Part shown: piece after piece, positions 17,472 through 24,099 of the stretch
Position numbering within the stretch: position 1 is the first letter of the stretch
Layout of the letters: every line of letters begins with the position of its first letter
NCBI RefSeq assembly: GCF_946892675.1
Contig: NZ_CAMPOV010000001.1
Span: 2,330,033-2,394,032 of the forward strand
Direction of reading: 5' to 3'
Length of the DNA stretch: 64,000 nucleotides
DNA from: Arthrobacter sp. Marseille-P9274
GTDB lineage: Bacteria > Actinomycetota > Actinomycetes > Actinomycetales > Micrococcaceae
Program-made: the position numbers and the translations under genes
Notes under the pieces: generated by a model
What the model saw: only the letters and a program-made list of their open reading frames with translations
What the model was told of the DNA's origin: nothing
The model's database searches: none

Positions 17472-17800
17472 CGCTAGCCATTTTACGGGAGCACGGGGCC
17501 GGAAACTGACATGTCCCCGACCGCCGCGGCGTTTGCACGCTCCAATCCCCGCCAGCACTGGACAGTGGTTTGCTACACACAAGGACGCCGCTGCCGTGTG
17601 ATCTGGGCTCGAGCTTTACGCTCTGGGGCAGGCGCACGTGGCACGGCGTTGCCCCTTATCGGTGGTGTGCTATTACTGATCCTATGCAGATGGGGCCGTG
17701 ACGGCCGAAACGGCAACGCTGGCGACCCCAGCCCGAAATTGTACGAGCCGCGTTCTGGTTGGCCACAAGCGCCGTTACTCGGCGACTTCCTTCGGCCGCT
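17472..17800. other. Gene-free stretch upstream of glmM
   Basis: No supported gene on either strand. It should hold the glmM promoter on the minus strand and the downstream end of the accessory cassette. Open frames here on the plus strand have no RBS or domain. Confidence 0.4.
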
Positions 17801-18022
17801 TCACGTCTTTGAGCTGGCGCCGTGCTCGTTGACCCAGTCGTCCCAACCGTTGCTCTCGCCACCGATAATCGTGGACGACGCACCGGATGGGGTTGCGAAG
17901 GTGTGGTTCTTTGCGAACCTCAGCTTCCCGTCGGATCCCGTTCCCCGCGCCACTTCTTTGGGCGCTTTGTCAGTACGCTTAGTGGTGGCCGCCGTGGTGC
18001 TACTTGGTTCCTGCTTGCTTCT
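17801..18022 (-). pseudogene. DUF4357-domain C-terminal module, out of frame with upstream gene
   Basis: A 73-codon open stretch without an ATG. After a Thr/Lys/Ala-rich linker it encodes GKLRFAKNHTFATPSGASS followed by TIIGGESNGWDDWVNEHG, which matches the DUF4357 pattern (aromatic strand, PSaAA helix, GxxxNGWxxW). It lies one frame off the end of the 66-residue ORF: skipping one base at the TAG (18000-18002) would fuse the coiled-coil protein to this domain through a natural-looking linker. A GTG at 17953 could start a 50-residue version but has no proper RBS. A single-base indel, a sequencing error or a programmed +1 shift are all possible. Confidence 0.6.
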
Positions 18023-18200
18023 TTAGCTCCACGATCTCGGCGGCCAGCTTTCCGATGACGTCGTGGTATTGGTCATACTTGGTATCTATTCCTAGGTCGC
18101 TGAGCGCGGCTTCTCGGCGCTGGCTATCTCGGAGAGTCTCTGCAACTCCGCTCAGGAATGCTCTCGCCATTGACTTCATCTTGTCGCGCGGATCGCCCAT
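18000..18200 (-). CDS. 66-residue protein, possibly truncated N-part of a DUF4357 protein
   Basis: Small protein, not recognised as any family. It is highly charged and predicted helical; residues about 45-62 (VIGKLAAEIVELKKQAG) look like a short coiled coil. ATG at 18200 is preceded by AGAAGAGAA, an acceptable RBS. It ends in TAG directly before a DUF4357-like segment in the +1 frame, so it may be the remaining half of a two-part protein. Third gene of an apparent operon after the HIRAN gene and the membrane protein, 58 bp after the latter. Base composition is more AT-rich than the flanking core genes. Confidence 0.6.
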   Translation of the reverse strand: MGDPRDKMKSMARAFLSGVAETLRDSQRREAALSDLGIDTKYDQYHDVIGKLAAEIVELKKQAGTK

Positions 18201-18258
18201 TCGTTCTCTTCTTTCGTGCTTTTGGCTCCGTTACCCACTGGGACCTGTGCATAAGTGA

Positions 18259-18846
18259 TCAGCCTGCTGAACGAGCTGGGGCCCTTTCAGCCGAGTCCTG
18301 CGGTTGCGTGCCCTCCAGGTACCGCTGCATGCGCCAATGTTGGTAGAAGTAGTTGATCGACCACTTTGGTGCGGATACGGCATCGAGGAGAATTGACACT
18401 GGCTTTGCCCCTTGTCTGCCAACCATCCAGTGAGGAGCGTCGAAATCGCACGCACCGTGGATATAGCCGGCCGTCGAGGCGATCATCCTCTTCGTAGTGC
18501 GTGTCAATCGATGTTCGAGCACGACGGCCGAAAACTGGATGGCATCTGCAGCCACGACCAACTTCGCGCGCGCTGCTGCCGCTCGCTCGTGCAGCTGCGA
18601 ACTGGCCTTGTCCTGCTCGGAAAGCCGCATCTGGTTGCAGGCCGCTGTCATAGATTGCAGTGTGCGTACCAGTTGAAGGTGATCGTTCGCGCGCATCTTG
18701 AACAGTTCGTTGCGTACCTCTAATCGCGGCCTTACCCACCAATCGAAAAGCAGCGTGACGACGACCGTGATTATGACGGTGAGTATCAGGCTTTCTAGAT
18801 CCGGGCCGCTGGTGCCGCCGTCTTGTGTCGCTTGCGTGAAGAGCAT
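18259..18846 (-). CDS. Membrane-anchored helical protein of unknown function
   Basis: 195-residue protein. A short N-terminal segment is followed by one strong transmembrane helix at about 18-37 (SLILTVIITVVVTLLFDWWV) and a Lys/Arg-rich junction (RPRLEVRNE), predicting a cytoplasmic C-terminal domain. That domain is largely helical with coiled-coil character around 55-110 and a Cys/Trp-containing tail. No known domain recognised. The ATG at 18846 and a TTG at 18849 are both possible; GAGGA lies about 12 bases upstream of the ATG, immediately after the stop of the HIRAN gene. Tight spacing with the HIRAN gene suggests a functional pair. Confidence 0.7.
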   Translation of the reverse strand: MLFTQATQDGGTSGPDLESLILTVIITVVVTLLFDWWVRPRLEVRNELFKMRANDHLQLVRTLQSMTAACNQMRLSEQDKASSQLHERAAAARAKLVVAADAIQFSAVVLEHRLTRTTKRMIASTAGYIHGACDFDAPHWMVGRQGAKPVSILLDAVSAPKWSINYFYQHWRMQRYLEGTQPQDSAERAPARSAG

Positions 18847-18861
18847 CAAACCAACCCGTCC

Positions 18862-20094
18862 TCACGCATGATCGACACGCTTCTCAGCCTGCAGCGCGTT
18901 GGCGACGCGAAACTTGAGCACGTTCACATAAATGCCGAACGCGAGCAACCCCAGCCCCAGCACTGGTCCGAGCAACGGAATGGCGGCTAAGAACAAACCG
19001 ATGACGACGGTGAGAACAATCATCGAGATCCCAGACGCCTTGTGCATTCCAGGCGAGTGCACCCGGTCCTTGTCCGTGACTGTCACGAAGTGCTTTCCCA
19101 CCCGCACTCGTGTGGCTCCCTGCGCAGCATCGCGGCCAGTAGGTTGGTGAGTTCCAGCTTCCCGTGTCTGAGAAGCGGGCGGCAGTGCCCCAGCGCCAGC
19201 ATTCTGCTGCCGTGTCCGGCTGGCCCGTTCAGCTTCGGTGTATGCCGGCGGGACTGAGTAAGACAGGGCTTCATCAACCAAGGGCGGGAAAGCGGGCATC
19301 GTCCGCAGCCACCCGTCACTGAGGTCAGCCGCCCTCGCCCCTTGGATGATCAAGTCGGCGGCGAGTCCCGAACCCTTGATTTTTGCCCAGACGCCGAGTT
19401 GCTTCCCCAAGTCCTCTACGTGGCGAATTGTGGGGAGGTAGTGGGCCGACGTTGTGGCGGTCAATTGGCCTACGCGTTCACCATCAAGCCTGACTTCGAC
19501 GAGTTCTTTTTCAGTACTGTTCTTGAGAACGTGCACCAATCGATGCATGGTCAGGATGACCATGCCCTCTCCCGACGTGGGCACGTAGTTAAACAGGTGG
19601 TCGAAGTGTTTGTCTTCTCCCGTGACCTGCAACGCGCCGCCCCACGGCAGTATGGCAGCGTCTGAAAGGCTGGCGTTATTCAGCGGGATAATCTGGTCTG
19701 CGGCAGGAAGGGCTACTCGGATGTTTGCATGGAACCGGGTCGAGTCTCTCCCCGTCTCCCAGTCCCGCTGCTTCCGACGGACGGCCCAGATCGACGCTTT
19801 GGTGGTGGCCACGGCTCCGGAGGCCGTAATCCGGTGGATGACATCTCGGTATTCGGCAGCCACGGGCCGCCCGAGATAGCCGACAACGTGTCCGCCAATG
19901 CGGACGGAGATCGCATTGGCATCGAAGGGATTGTCCGGCTCCGGGATCAGAACCGCTTCGAACTCTTCGCTGACCTGCTCGTCGAGCCTGGGCTTCCTGC
20001 CCAGCGCCGCGAGGATCTGAGCCTCTCGATAGTACTCACCGACGATTTCGTAATTGGCCCAGTTCAAATTGCCTGGTAAGAAATACCTCTCCAT
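18862..20094 (-). CDS. HIRAN-domain protein with two C-terminal membrane helices
   Basis: 410-residue protein. Residues about 14-110 form a HIRAN domain: VVGEYY.. EIVGEYYREA, FEAVLIPEPDNPFDANAISV and GGHVVGYLGRPVAAEY match its core pattern. HIRAN binds DNA ends or single-stranded DNA in Rad5/HLTF-type proteins. A second region (about 170-270: VEVRLDGERVGQLT) repeats the strand order and may be a diverged copy. A Thr/Gln/Ala-rich linker leads to two hydrophobic segments near 350-395 (ISMIVLTVVIGLFLAAIPLL), so the sensor domain would be tethered to the membrane. ATG at 20094 follows GGGGGA. No helicase or nuclease is fused. First gene of the accessory operon; function unknown. Confidence 0.8.
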   Translation of the reverse strand: MERYFLPGNLNWANYEIVGEYYREAQILAALGRKPRLDEQVSEEFEAVLIPEPDNPFDANAISVRIGGHVVGYLGRPVAAEYRDVIHRITASGAVATTKASIWAVRRKQRDWETGRDSTRFHANIRVALPAADQIIPLNNASLSDAAILPWGGALQVTGEDKHFDHLFNYVPTSGEGMVILTMHRLVHVLKNSTEKELVEVRLDGERVGQLTATTSAHYLPTIRHVEDLGKQLGVWAKIKGSGLAADLIIQGARAADLSDGWLRTMPAFPPLVDEALSYSVPPAYTEAERASRTRQQNAGAGALPPASQTREAGTHQPTGRDAAQGATRVRVGKHFVTVTDKDRVHSPGMHKASGISMIVLTVVIGLFLAAIPLLGPVLGLGLLAFGIYVNVLKFRVANALQAEKRVDHA

Positions 20095-20664
20095 TTGTCC
20101 CCCATTTTTGATTCGGATCTCCGAGCGAGCTGCTCCGGTGGTGGTAGCTCATAGCCGCAGTCGATTAACCGATTCAGTGCCCCCACACCTTAAAGACTAG
20201 CGGGAAGGACCGACAGAAAAAGACTCCCTGCCCGGCGCGAACCACGACAGGGGGCTTTCTTGTGTCCCAAGTTCCCATCCGCTGGGGGCGCAGCGGCCGC
20301 ACAGGACATAGAGGAACGCGCTCTTAGATCCCTCTTGGAACCGGAAAGTGCCCATCCGACGCGTGTCATCCGCATGTTGCTCCGGCGTCAGTCTGGCACG
20401 GCTTGAAGCAGGCCGGGCTGGACGTAAGTCTTTTGGGAAGTCATGCCGTCCTGGGGTTCTGCTGGGTCTGTACCTCGTAGAGTTCAGCGGCTTTGACGCG
20501 TGGAACTGGACCGCCGCTGCGGAGTTCCGGGTGCAGGTCATCGACTTCGCGGAGTAAGGATGCGCCAAAGTGCGGCAGTCGCCCGAATATATCCCGAGCC
20601 AGATAACTTCGCTGTCGTTCGTGACATGTGCCAAAGGTACGTTGGTCACGTTAGTCTCTCCATA
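20095..20664. other. Unassigned region between accessory operon and rpsI
   Basis: About 570 bp with no confident gene. On the minus strand 20650-20441 is open for 69 codons with coding-like composition (LLREVDDLHPELRSGG, VKAAELYEVQ) but no ATG or GTG start, so it looks like a gene remnant. Its TGA overlaps an ATG for an 18-codon ORF. A 7-bp stem CTCCCTG/CAGGGGG near 20224-20255 followed by CTTTCTT may be a terminator. The promoter of the HIRAN gene should lie in 20100-20200, where GTCGATTAACCGATTC shows partial dyad symmetry. Confidence 0.35.
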
Positions 20665-20715
20665 TTCCTCCCGTGTTCCTCCGTGGTTCCTGTATTGGTT
20701 CCTGTCTTGGTTCCT
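20665..20715. repeat. Five helically phased TTCCT (AGGAA) repeats
   Basis: TTCCT occurs at 20665, 20676, 20687, 20699 and 20711, with periods 11, 11, 12 and 12. The surrounding bases are partly conserved: TTCCTGTATTGG and TTCCTGTCTTGG are near-identical. Spacing close to one helical turn suggests a multimeric protein-binding site, or an iteron or integrase-arm remnant. It lies about 35 bp beyond the rpsI terminator. Confidence 0.7.
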
Positions 20716-20750
20716 CGGAGGGGGTAGTCGTTCTTCACGTTAAAGCGGAA

Positions 20751-20819: not shown

Positions 20820-21317
20820 TTAGCGCTTCGAGTACTGCGGAGCCTTGCGGGCCTTCTTGAGACCGGCCTTCTTACGCTCGATGATGCGAGCGTCGCGGGT
20901 CAGGAAGCCGGCCTTCTTCAGGGTCGGACGGTTGTTTTCCCGGTCGATCTCGTTCAGCGCACGGGCAACGCCCAGGCGCAGCGCACCGGCCTGGCCGGAG
21001 GGGCCGCCGCCGTGGATGCGGGCGATGACGTCGTAAGCGCCTTCCAGTTCCAGGATCTTGAACGGATCGTTCACTTCCTGCTGGTGCAGCTTGTTCGGGA
21101 AGTAGTTGGCCAGCTCGCGGTCGTTGATGGTCCACTTGCCCGAACCCGGGACAACGCGGACACGGGCAACGGCTTCCTTGCGGCGGCCGACGGCGGAGCC
21201 GGCAACGGTCAGGGCCGGGCGCTCCTTGGCAACGGTCTCGGAGGCGGGAGCGCTCTCCGAGGTGTAGCTGGTGAGGGTCTCGCCCTCGTTGTTCAGCTCT
21301 TCAGTATTCTGAGCCAC
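20820..21317 (-). CDS. rpsI: 30S ribosomal protein S9
   Basis: 165 residues. The conserved S9 core begins near residue 40 ([15 protein letters not shown]) and ends in the invariant C-terminal tail [12 protein letters not shown] that reaches the ribosomal P site. An acidic, Thr/Ser-rich N-terminal extension of about 38 residues is typical of actinobacterial S9. GTG start with AAGGAG five bases upstream. Follows rplM by 39 bp in the usual rplM-rpsI operon. Confidence 0.97.
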
Positions 21318-21800: not shown

Positions 21801-22337
21801 GGTTTTGGCCTTCGTTTCTTGTTTGCAAGTAGCGGCGCACCCAGTCGGGCACGCACACAAGTTCTCTCATGCGCTACCGGAATCTCAGGTGAGGACTGAA
21901 ATGTAACCAGTGGTCCAGAGGGCCTCGGCCACGTCCGCGGATCAGGTAGCCCTGCAACTGGGCAAACGCGCGGATATGGACGCATCGAGGTTGGACACGC
22001 ACAACGACTACCAAGGATATCGCGCCGCACCATCAGAGGTCAAAGGGAGCTCCGCTGGCCCCTCTTCCAAGCCGGCAAAGTCCGGCCCCCAAACTCCCGC
22101 ATCGATCCAGACACGCCGAAGGTCGCGGCCTCCGATAACATTTTGATAACAACGGAAAGAAGGACTTGGTTAAACCTTGTACTTTCCGCTTACTATGGAT
22201 TTCGGTTTGGGGGCCAAAATCAACTCCTTCGAGACTTCCCTCTCGAATAGTTGGGGGCATTTCTGCGGTATCTCCCTGCCATCAGTAATGAATCCGAATG
22301 ACCCCAACGGTCATTCTCACTTCAGGAGTTGAATCTT
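21801..22337. other. Divergent regulatory region between rplM and flp
   Basis: About 540 bp without a supported gene. The right half is clearly more AT-rich than core DNA. It should hold the rplM promoter on the minus strand and the Flp/Tad promoter on the plus strand. A possible plus-strand pair, TTGGTT near 22168 and TACTAT near 22193, has a long spacer and is weak. Confidence 0.35.
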
Positions 22338-22598
22338 ATGCTCGGTCTGTACATGAACGTGCGCAATTTCGTCACCAGCCGCCTTGCCCGCGAAGAAAAG
22401 GGCGCCACCGCCGTCGAATACGGCATCATGGTCGCTCTCATCGCCGTCGCCATCATCGCCGCCGTCACCCTTCTCGGAGGAACGGTTACTCAGAAGTTTT
22501 CTGAGGCGCAGTGTGCGATTTCCGGTAAGACTTACAGTGCGGCTACGGTCGCTGGCGAGGGCGGGGCGACCGTTACAGCCGCTGCTAAGTGCGCGTGA
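22338..22598 (+). CDS. flp: Flp/Fap-family pilin
   Basis: 86-residue major pilin. A class III leader ends in EEKG, with predicted prepilin peptidase cleavage after Gly22; the mature N-terminus is ATAVEYG with the required Glu at +5 and Tyr at +6. A hydrophobic helix (IMVALIAVAIIAAVTLLGG) follows and packs into the fibre. Two cysteines in the C-terminal part (QCAIS and KCA) could form a disulfide. ATG at 22338 has AGGAG nine bases upstream; a TTG at 22329 is a less likely start. First gene of the tad locus, separated from tadE by a hairpin. Confidence 0.93.
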   Translation: MLGLYMNVRNFVTSRLAREEKGATAVEYGIMVALIAVAIIAAVTLLGGTVTQKFSEAQCAISGKTYSAATVAGEGGATVTAAAKCA

Positions 22599-22619
22599 CG
22601 CTGACCATCCGCTAACTGG

Positions 22620-22658
22620 TTGTGGGCTAGATGGTGGCTTCCACCCTCCAGCCCACAA
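22620..22658 (+). terminator. Hairpin between flp and tadE, possible attenuator
   Basis: TTGTGGGCT (22620-22628) pairs with AGCCCACAA (22650-22658), and an inner GGTGG/CCACC stem closes on a CTT loop. No T-run follows, so partial termination or 3'-end protection of the pilin mRNA is more likely than a full stop. It covers the alternative start at 22631 of the next ORF. Confidence 0.55.
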
Positions 22659-22678
22659 CTTCGTCGTTCGAGCTGCTG

Positions 22679-23083
22679 ATGTTTAGACCATCCAAAGAAC
22701 GAGGCGCTGCGGCCGTGGAGTTTGCATTGGTTGTACCGCTCTTACTCGTGCTCCTGCTCGGCATTCTAGAGTTCGGCCGGGTGTACAATGCCCAAATCAC
22801 CCTCGCACAAGCAGCGAGGGAAGGGGCGCGCGTCATGGCCATCGAAAATAACGAGGCTCAAGCCAAATCCTCAATTATTCAGGCAGCCGCGGCTTTGGAT
22901 CCAGCCCACCTTTCTATCCAAATTGAATCGAGTGATCCCTCTATGAGTGGTCCCGTGTTTGTGGATAGGTGCCTTTCCGGCCACCAGGTGACAGTCAGAA
23001 TCACATATTCCCTCAGTACCATTACGGGGTTCTTCGGACCGACCAGTCTGAGTGGGCGGGGCGCCATGAGGTGTGGCGGTTGA
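22679..23083 (+). CDS. TadE-like minor pseudopilin
   Basis: 134-residue TadE-family protein. The sequence RGAAAVEFALVVPLLLVLLL shows a cleavage site after Gly9 with Glu at +5 and a hydrophobic helix, followed by EFGRVYNAQITLAQAAREGAR, the characteristic TadE continuation. ATG at 22679 is chosen because it puts few residues before the cleavage site; the upstream ATG at 22631 lies in the hairpin. The ribosome binding site is weak. Its stop overlaps the TTG start of the next gene. Confidence 0.87.
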   Translation: MFRPSKERGAAAVEFALVVPLLLVLLLGILEFGRVYNAQITLAQAAREGARVMAIENNEAQAKSSIIQAAAALDPAHLSIQIESSDPSMSGPVFVDRCLSGHQVTVRITYSLSTITGFFGPTSLSGRGAMRCGG

Positions 23084-24099
23084 AACGAGTCAAGGACGAG
23101 CAAGGCGCTACTGCTGTCCTGGTGTCGATCCTCTTAGTCGTGCTCCTGGGGTTCGCCGCCCTGGTCGTCGATATGGGACGGCTCTACTCAGAAAAGGCGC
23201 AGCTACAAAACGCCGCCGACGCGGTGGCACTCTCATTGGCCAAGTCGTGTGCCGACAAGCCTAGCGGCGTTGCCTGCACTACACCGGCTGCGCACGCCCT
23301 GGCTTTGGCCGGGGCGAATCTTGATGATGGGACCGTTCGGATCATCGAGGCAGACACCTCTATCAAGAATCGCGTCAAAGTGACTACCGGAACGCGCGAT
23401 GAAGCGGGCCGTGACTCCTTGCCGTACCTCCTGGCTCCGATACTCGGCATTACTGACACTGACGTTCGTGCCTCTGCGGCGGTGGCTTTCGGCGGCATCT
23501 CGGCAGGGCCCGCGGCTTTCCCTCTGGCATTCTCCGAATGCCAGTTCACACTTACTGGCGGAATCCAGCTAGTGGCCAGTAAGGGTGTCACAATGCCGGG
23601 TTGCACCTCGAGCAGCGGAAACCTGATTCCTGGGGGCTTCGGATACCTGAAATCCTCAGATTCCACGAAGTGTGACGTTTACGCTCAGGCATCGGCAACC
23701 ATCGGAGTACCGAGCGCCACGGGCAATGACGAACCTTCGGTCTGCAAGGCCCTGCTTGAACAATGGATGGCTACCTTGCAACAGACAGGCAGCGAAGTGA
23801 TAGTCCTGCTTCCGGTATTCCATAAGACTGAAGGAACCGGTAACGGCGGGCAATACTTCATTAAACAATTTGCCGCGTTCAGTGTTATGGGTTGGAAGTT
23901 TACTGGCGGAAATTGGAACGCTTCTCAACCCACAAAAGATCCGTACGTCTACAAGAATTCAGAGTTTACTGGGCAGAAGTGCACCGGTGACTGCCGAGGA
24001 ATCATCGGCAAGTTTATTCGATTCGCCACACTCGATGAGGACTTCAAACTTGGGGGCACCAGCGAACTGGGTGCCAGCTTGATCTATTTCACCGAGTGA
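23080..24099 (+). CDS. TadG-like Flp pilus assembly protein
   Basis: 339-residue protein with the N-terminal Tad motif (DEQGATAVLVSILLVVLLGF) and the helix continuation VDMGRLYSEKAQLQNAADA found in TadE/TadG. Position +5 after Gly9 is Leu, not Glu, so processing by prepilin peptidase is doubtful, as expected for TadG. The large extracytoplasmic part has several cysteines (ADKP.. SGVAC, SECQF, MPGC, KCDVY, SVCKA, KCTGDC). The TTG at 23080 overlaps the preceding TGA and follows AGGTG at 23069-23073. Composition is more AT-rich than the downstream tad ATPase genes. Confidence 0.82.
   Translation: MKRVKDEQGATAVLVSILLVVLLGFAALVVDMGRLYSEKAQLQNAADAVALSLAKSCADKPSGVACTTPAAHALALAGANLDDGTVRIIEADTSIKNRVKVTTGTRDEAGRDSLPYLLAPILGITDTDVRASAAVAFGGISAGPAAFPLAFSECQFTLTGGIQLVASKGVTMPGCTSSSGNLIPGGFGYLKSSDSTKCDVYAQASATIGVPSATGNDEPSVCKALLEQWMATLQQTGSEVIVLLPVFHKTEGTGNGGQYFIKQFAAFSVMGWKFTGGNWNASQPTKDPYVYKNSEFTGQKCTGDCRGIIGKFIRFATLDEDFKLGGTSELGASLIYFTE

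Follow-up and report, generated by a model that had tools for sequence, protein, structure and literature searches.

Genes that are expressed in the lysogen and exclude other phages classically sit next to the repressor, as those of Rex, CarolAnn and Ltp do (PMC6426606, PMC3952083). In the Gordonia phage CarolAnn, gp43 and gp44 are cotranscribed with the repressor, and their part in exclusion, by a Rex-like mechanism, is proven (PMC6426606). HIRAN domains (PF08797), present in HLTF, Rad5 and lp_0118, also occur in mobile and defence contexts such as HIRAN-HipA and HIRAN-diDNase operons (PMC11706625, PMC8262856).

Here we describe two adjacent genes, A and B, in the window, by which we mean the whole 64,000-nucleotide stretch of DNA, from a soil actinobacterium of the Micrococcaceae, that was analysed; the nearest named relative of A is in Arthrobacter crystallopoietes BAB-32. 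Both repeats of A match the HIRAN fold, and repeat 1 keeps an NNPYD-type loop. Unlike HLTF, Rad5 and lp_0118, A has two tandem copies, no helicase or nuclease, and a membrane anchor. It also differs from the HIRAN-HipA and HIRAN-diDNase operons in having no adjoining HipA kinase or nuclease, a distinction drawn from the descriptions of those operons rather than from comparison of the proteins. Relatives of A occupy the same repressor-to-peptidase slot as CarolAnn gp43/gp44 and lambda RexAB (PMC6426606), and one of them adjoins a homologous pair; A and B themselves, however, are not homologous to these proteins, and A has a HIRAN domain and its own anchor. The membrane protein of CarolAnn and RexAB has four helices, whereas B has one membrane helix and the window copy lies outside a prophage. 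With the exclusion protein Ltp (Sie), A shares a membrane anchor, a spacer and a repeat domain, and the phage relatives of A, not the window copy, share its place in the lysogeny module; in contrast, Ltp, a lipoprotein, lies outside the membrane and its repeats are unrelated to those of A (PMC3952083), and A is predicted to face the cytoplasm.

The insert between glmM and rpsI

The spacing between glmM and rpsI is 3.3 kb in the window and about 130–370 bp in all nine other genomes of the genus, each of which lacks the insert (9/9). Homology to the sister genome, G122, whose flanking genes encode proteins 97–98% identical to those of the window, ends at 17597 and restarts at 20739, and the insert has replaced about 100 bp of G122-type sequence. 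The location and the insertion, both proposed in the initial annotation, are thus borne out. Its claim that the composition is unlike that of both sides applies to one side: the G+C content of the insert (0.56–0.63) is below that of glmM (0.68–0.71) and within the range of rplM and the genes beyond (0.52–0.63). A search for direct repeats bracketing the window insert gave nothing convincing. Beyond rplM, on the opposite strand, putative Flp-pilin-like and TadE/TadG-like genes lie at 22329–24099.

On sequence comparison, the insert is a mosaic whose pieces have their nearest relatives at different places. Positions 17605–17931 are 80% identical in DNA to BAB-32 sequence that spans the last part of a GIY-YIG-DUF4357 gene and the spacer leading to hsdM/hsdS, positions 18001–18216 are 75% identical to a small gene in another genome, G136, and positions 18689–20229 are 75% identical to BAB-32 DNA with genes A and B.

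Table 1. Features of the insert and its flanks in the window
Feature	Position	Strand	Description	Basis
Whole insert	17598–20738		3.14 kb, between glmM and rpsI	Homology to G122 breaks
glmM	Start ~17474	−	Flank of insert	
Decayed 3′ end of GIY-YIG-DUF4357 gene	17605–17953	−	With downstream spacer	80% DNA identity to BAB-32 next to hsdM; Pfam
Gene C	18000–18200	−	66-aa soluble protein, separate cassette	75% DNA identity over 215 bp to G136
Gene B	18259–18849	−	196 aa; single-pass membrane protein, helical cytoplasmic domain (predicted)	ORF, hydropathy, AF2
Gene A	18862–20094	−	410 aa; tandem HIRAN-like protein, C-terminal membrane anchor (predicted)	ORF, Pfam HIRAN
Hydrophobic hairpin of A	18889–19035	−	Two helices, about residues 354–402	Hydropathy, AF2 helices
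HIRAN-like repeat 2 of A	19300–19665	−	Residues 144–265, EPDNP loop lost	hhalign, VIA-align
HIRAN repeat 1 of A	19687–20094	−	Residues 1–136, conserved EPDNP loop	VIA-align
rpsI	20820–21317	−	Other flank of insert	

The DUF4357 module of the initial annotation is a remnant. Its open reading frame, ORF D (17801–17953), matches Pfam DUF4357 (E 7e-12) and is 86% identical to an intact 286-aa BAB-32 protein over 43 aa in one frame, after which the frame changes, so we rejected an active module in favour of a decayed 3′ gene end. The BAB-32 protein has both domains, with GIY-YIG just under its cut-off, and its gene sits beside a type I R-M locus, immediately ahead of hsdM and hsdS and in their orientation (L078:320-4061). 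Its C-terminal domain matches the PADLOC candidate family PDC-S14; ORF D shares that match, whereas the window lacks the GIY-YIG catalytic domain and retains 43 in-frame C-terminal residues.

Gene C is probably not part of a unit with A and B: its only relative, in G136, has neither gene near it, and C is missing beside the A–B pair of BAB-32. Because the frame of ORF D is open across the end of C, we considered the two as a single frameshifted gene and rejected this, because D aligns with the GIY-YIG protein, whereas the match of C is an intact 66-aa gene with no relation to it. In G136 (L087:8500-11100), the relative of C stands among small unassigned genes, just before one for a 202-aa putative single-pass membrane protein; three of its neighbours there gave no Pfam match.

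Architecture and pairing of genes A and B

Against the Pfam HIRAN profile, A scores 23.8 bits (E 3.9e-5), just missing the cut-off of 24.7, and its relatives L010, L119, L157 and E6 gp33 score above it. The fold is backed by structural comparison. Although the AF2 model of A, built from six sequences, has a pLDDT of only 69, strands and helices follow in the same order in both halves, and the top 12 PDB matches of this model in Foldseek are all HLTF HIRAN chains. In VIA-align, residues 6–136 match 3k2y (lp_0118), which we take to be a bacterial HIRAN structure, with Z 9.0 and HLTF HIRAN with Z about 7, and the EPDNP loop of this repeat aligns with the NNPYD loop of HLTF. The second repeat, which has no such loop, matches Kluyveromyces lactis Rad5 (Z 6.8 over residues 150–253) and HLTF HIRAN (Z 5.7 over residues 144–265). 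Aligned with each other by hhalign, the two repeats are homologous (Prob 81, E 1.2e-5); the second had been missed in the initial annotation. Neither A nor B matches a helicase domain (SWI2/SNF2).

After the repeats come a spacer of low complexity and then a hydrophobic hairpin, flanked by basic residues on either side, in which AF2 places helices at residues 348–370 and 376–409. We called membrane helices by hydropathy, and neither sequence nor hydropathy revealed an N-terminal signal or helix in A. Because the C-terminal hairpin has basic flanks, the repeats are predicted to be cytoplasmic. These computations show A, as modelled, to be a tandem HIRAN-like protein with a membrane anchor, in keeping with the HIRAN domain and two C-terminal membrane helices originally annotated, and its fold suggests that it may bind DNA ends.

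Gene B, too, is predicted to be what had been annotated, a single-pass membrane protein with a helical domain: hydropathy gives one transmembrane segment (residues 21–39), and the remainder is all-helical in an AF2 model with a pLDDT of 77. A fold search with B returned no significant structural match, no relative of B was found in viral contigs, and the plasmids searched for A or B yielded no match.

B starts 12 bases after the stop of A, directly downstream, in both the window and BAB-32, with identical gap lengths; between the two, A is 79% and B 45% identical. The BAB-32 pair lies at another site, between an alcohol dehydrogenase gene and gntR, bracketed by a 45-nt direct repeat (91%; L002:405-449 / 2584-2628) that duplicates the 3′ end of gntR. 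As read from the sequence, the matching site in the window's own genome and in G122 holds a DinB-like gene and no A–B pair. Because the BAB-32 site differs and carries a duplicated gntR end, A and B are a real pair that moved together and recurs beside different genes. The pairing, on which a role for B rests, is clear in two genomes: of the 395 genomes searched, 90 have an A match and just 2 of these also have B beside it, and clear relatives of B are found in just one other genome. At the BAB-32 locus we also observed a weaker repeat (L002:300-325 / 2478-2503), and no integrase is present there.

Distribution of gene A and its relatives in phage lysogeny modules

The A family is present in 90 of 395 Micrococcaceae genomes; the class-wide search used a single-sequence query, so distant members may be missed. 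Within the window's genus, A is found in only 2 of 10 genomes, at different places. Between the window and BAB-32, dS is 1.5 for A, against 0.2 for rpsI and 0.48 for glmM, the flanking core genes. Because the value for A is far above these, the two copies were acquired separately, and the computation shows A to be horizontally acquired. Its dN/dS is 0.08 (0.04 in the repeat region), indicating strong purifying selection and hence a protein that is used. For B the ratio is 0.23, on saturated dS; B would be the faster-evolving of the two.

In two genera, g3 and g6, the family is universal and single-copy (32 of 32 and 25 of 25 good genomes, respectively; for example, L046 and L050), and several of its loci there are flanked by pepN on one side and an ABC1 kinase gene on the other. 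In the tree, these fixed copies form a separate long-branch clade, and phage and non-phage copies are interleaved around the window A, which clusters with three of the former (clade support 90/76). Architectures vary: the anchor is N-terminal in E6 gp33 and L157, L010–L015 have DUF4236 and a membrane helix, and L016 and L017 have DUF2510 and no predicted helix.

Relatives of A occur in the lysogeny modules of temperate actinophages, between the repressor and an M78 (ImmA/IrrE-like) peptidase or integrase. We found these loci by a conserved-motif scan of IMG/VR, with mechanical gene calls; across all 40 viral HIRAN loci, a survey by regex picked up M78 genes but lacked the sensitivity to detect integrases. 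In prophage contigs L117, L118, L119, L120 and L157, A stands beside an HTH repressor-like gene, an M78 peptidase, an integrase or a combination of these, and in the isolated Propionibacterium phage E6 the A relative gp33 directly follows the repressor gp34. In L121, L122 and L134 this slot is taken by anchored HIRAN proteins of shorter length, and the integrase of L134 is Bacteroidota-type. A position beside the repressor itself is seen in L117–L119 and E6; the copies in the window and BAB-32 and the fixed copies have neither repressor nor peptidase nearby, and the window copy is not in a prophage. We rejected ORF28 of Arthrobacter phage Vulpecula (PMC10927666) as a relative: it has a HIRAN-like motif, but no membrane helix and a layout unlike that of A.

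In a chromosomal island, L034, the genes that come after A encode an M78 peptidase and homologues of two proteins of the Gordonia phage DumpsterDude, gp44 (E 5e-20) and gp43 (E 3e-27). The first of these phage proteins, gp44, itself has a homologue in CarolAnn gp44 (E 3e-7). L034 is the only locus with homologues of the CarolAnn-type pair beside A. In L119, proteins of 306 and 164 aa adjoin A in a layout like CarolAnn's, and neither has a clear homologue. The 3′ ends of the repressor and A genes of L119 (5891-5989 and 7345-7443) share 88 of 99 bases, and both proteins have the same tail; a chromosomal A in G014 (L008), where no repressor was seen nearby, ends in a similar tail.

Proposed exclusion and competing roles for the A–B pair

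We lean, with modest confidence, towards the view that A–B is an exclusion cassette of the prophage type, left stranded in the chromosome within a small defence mosaic, the defence setting being suggested by the adjoining decayed R-M-associated gene. A would be expressed in the uninfected or lysogenic cell, like other genes of its slot, and would shut out superinfecting phages. Tethered to the inner membrane and facing the cytoplasm, the HIRAN pair would bind linear phage DNA by its free ends as it comes in, and by holding these would block complete entry, circularisation or replication. B would act as a partner that positions A or relays a signal. Several observations count against exclusion. 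Universality in two genera suggests a cellular role for some members, which the fixed chromosomal copies may have; several island copies lie away from phage genes, and relatives of B are clear in one other genome only. Moreover, A is predicted to face inward, unlike known Sie proteins such as Ltp, which are located outside the membrane, and repeat 2 has no binding loop.

The same gene neighbourhoods could reflect sensing of prophage induction, in which the HIRAN pair would detect broken or single-stranded DNA and signal the M78 peptidase to inactivate the repressor, leaving the window copy as a relic. Several phages do have A next to the repressor as well as the M78 peptidase, and HIRAN domains are tied to DNA damage (PMC11706625). 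We nevertheless consider such a sensor quite improbable, since copies persist away from repressor and peptidase, A is under purifying selection, it is not obvious what a sensor of chromosomal damage would gain from a membrane anchor, and CarolAnn carries the same peptidase with no HIRAN gene. Exclusion is favoured over induction sensing by where the gene lies, by its place next to a homologous exclusion pair, by anchoring at the site where DNA enters the cell, and by its survival apart from the rest of the lysogeny module. The fixed, single-copy loci beside pepN would fit a housekeeping membrane anchor for DNA, tethering for example replication forks or damaged chromosome ends, in a gene that phages and islands merely acquired. 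The patchy placement and high dS of A in the window's genus, and the separate clade formed by the fixed copies, make this unlikely. The proposal of the initial annotation, a three-gene defence system of A, B and C with a DUF4357 module, draws on the shared strand and close spacing of the genes. It is largely refuted by the sequence comparisons and seems to us very improbable: the nearest relatives of the pieces are scattered, that of C lying away from A and B, B accompanies A too seldom for a recurring trio, and ORF D is a frame-broken fragment. What stands of that annotation is the idea that a DNA-binding protein fixed to the membrane acts in defence together with a second membrane protein; it gains support from A relatives in the repressor-to-integrase slot of proven exclusion genes and from A–B beside different genes.

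Beyond exclusion by A–B itself, we suggest tentatively, as a less probable extension, that tandem HIRAN proteins tethered to the membrane make up a prophage exclusion class of their own, so far undescribed, which catches incoming phage DNA by its free ends at the inner membrane; such proteins would have moved repeatedly between lysogeny modules and defence mosaics and become fixed in two genera. Our literature search found no paper linking HIRAN with exclusion. Actinophage exclusion genes are diverse and mostly unassigned, and a DNA-end-binding fold on the membrane offers a concrete, testable mechanism. If true, it would give HIRAN a bacterial role beyond helicases and help to account for a gene, fixed in two Micrococcaceae genera, that carries no annotated function. 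Carriers are at hand in the isolated phage E6 and the named strain BAB-32.
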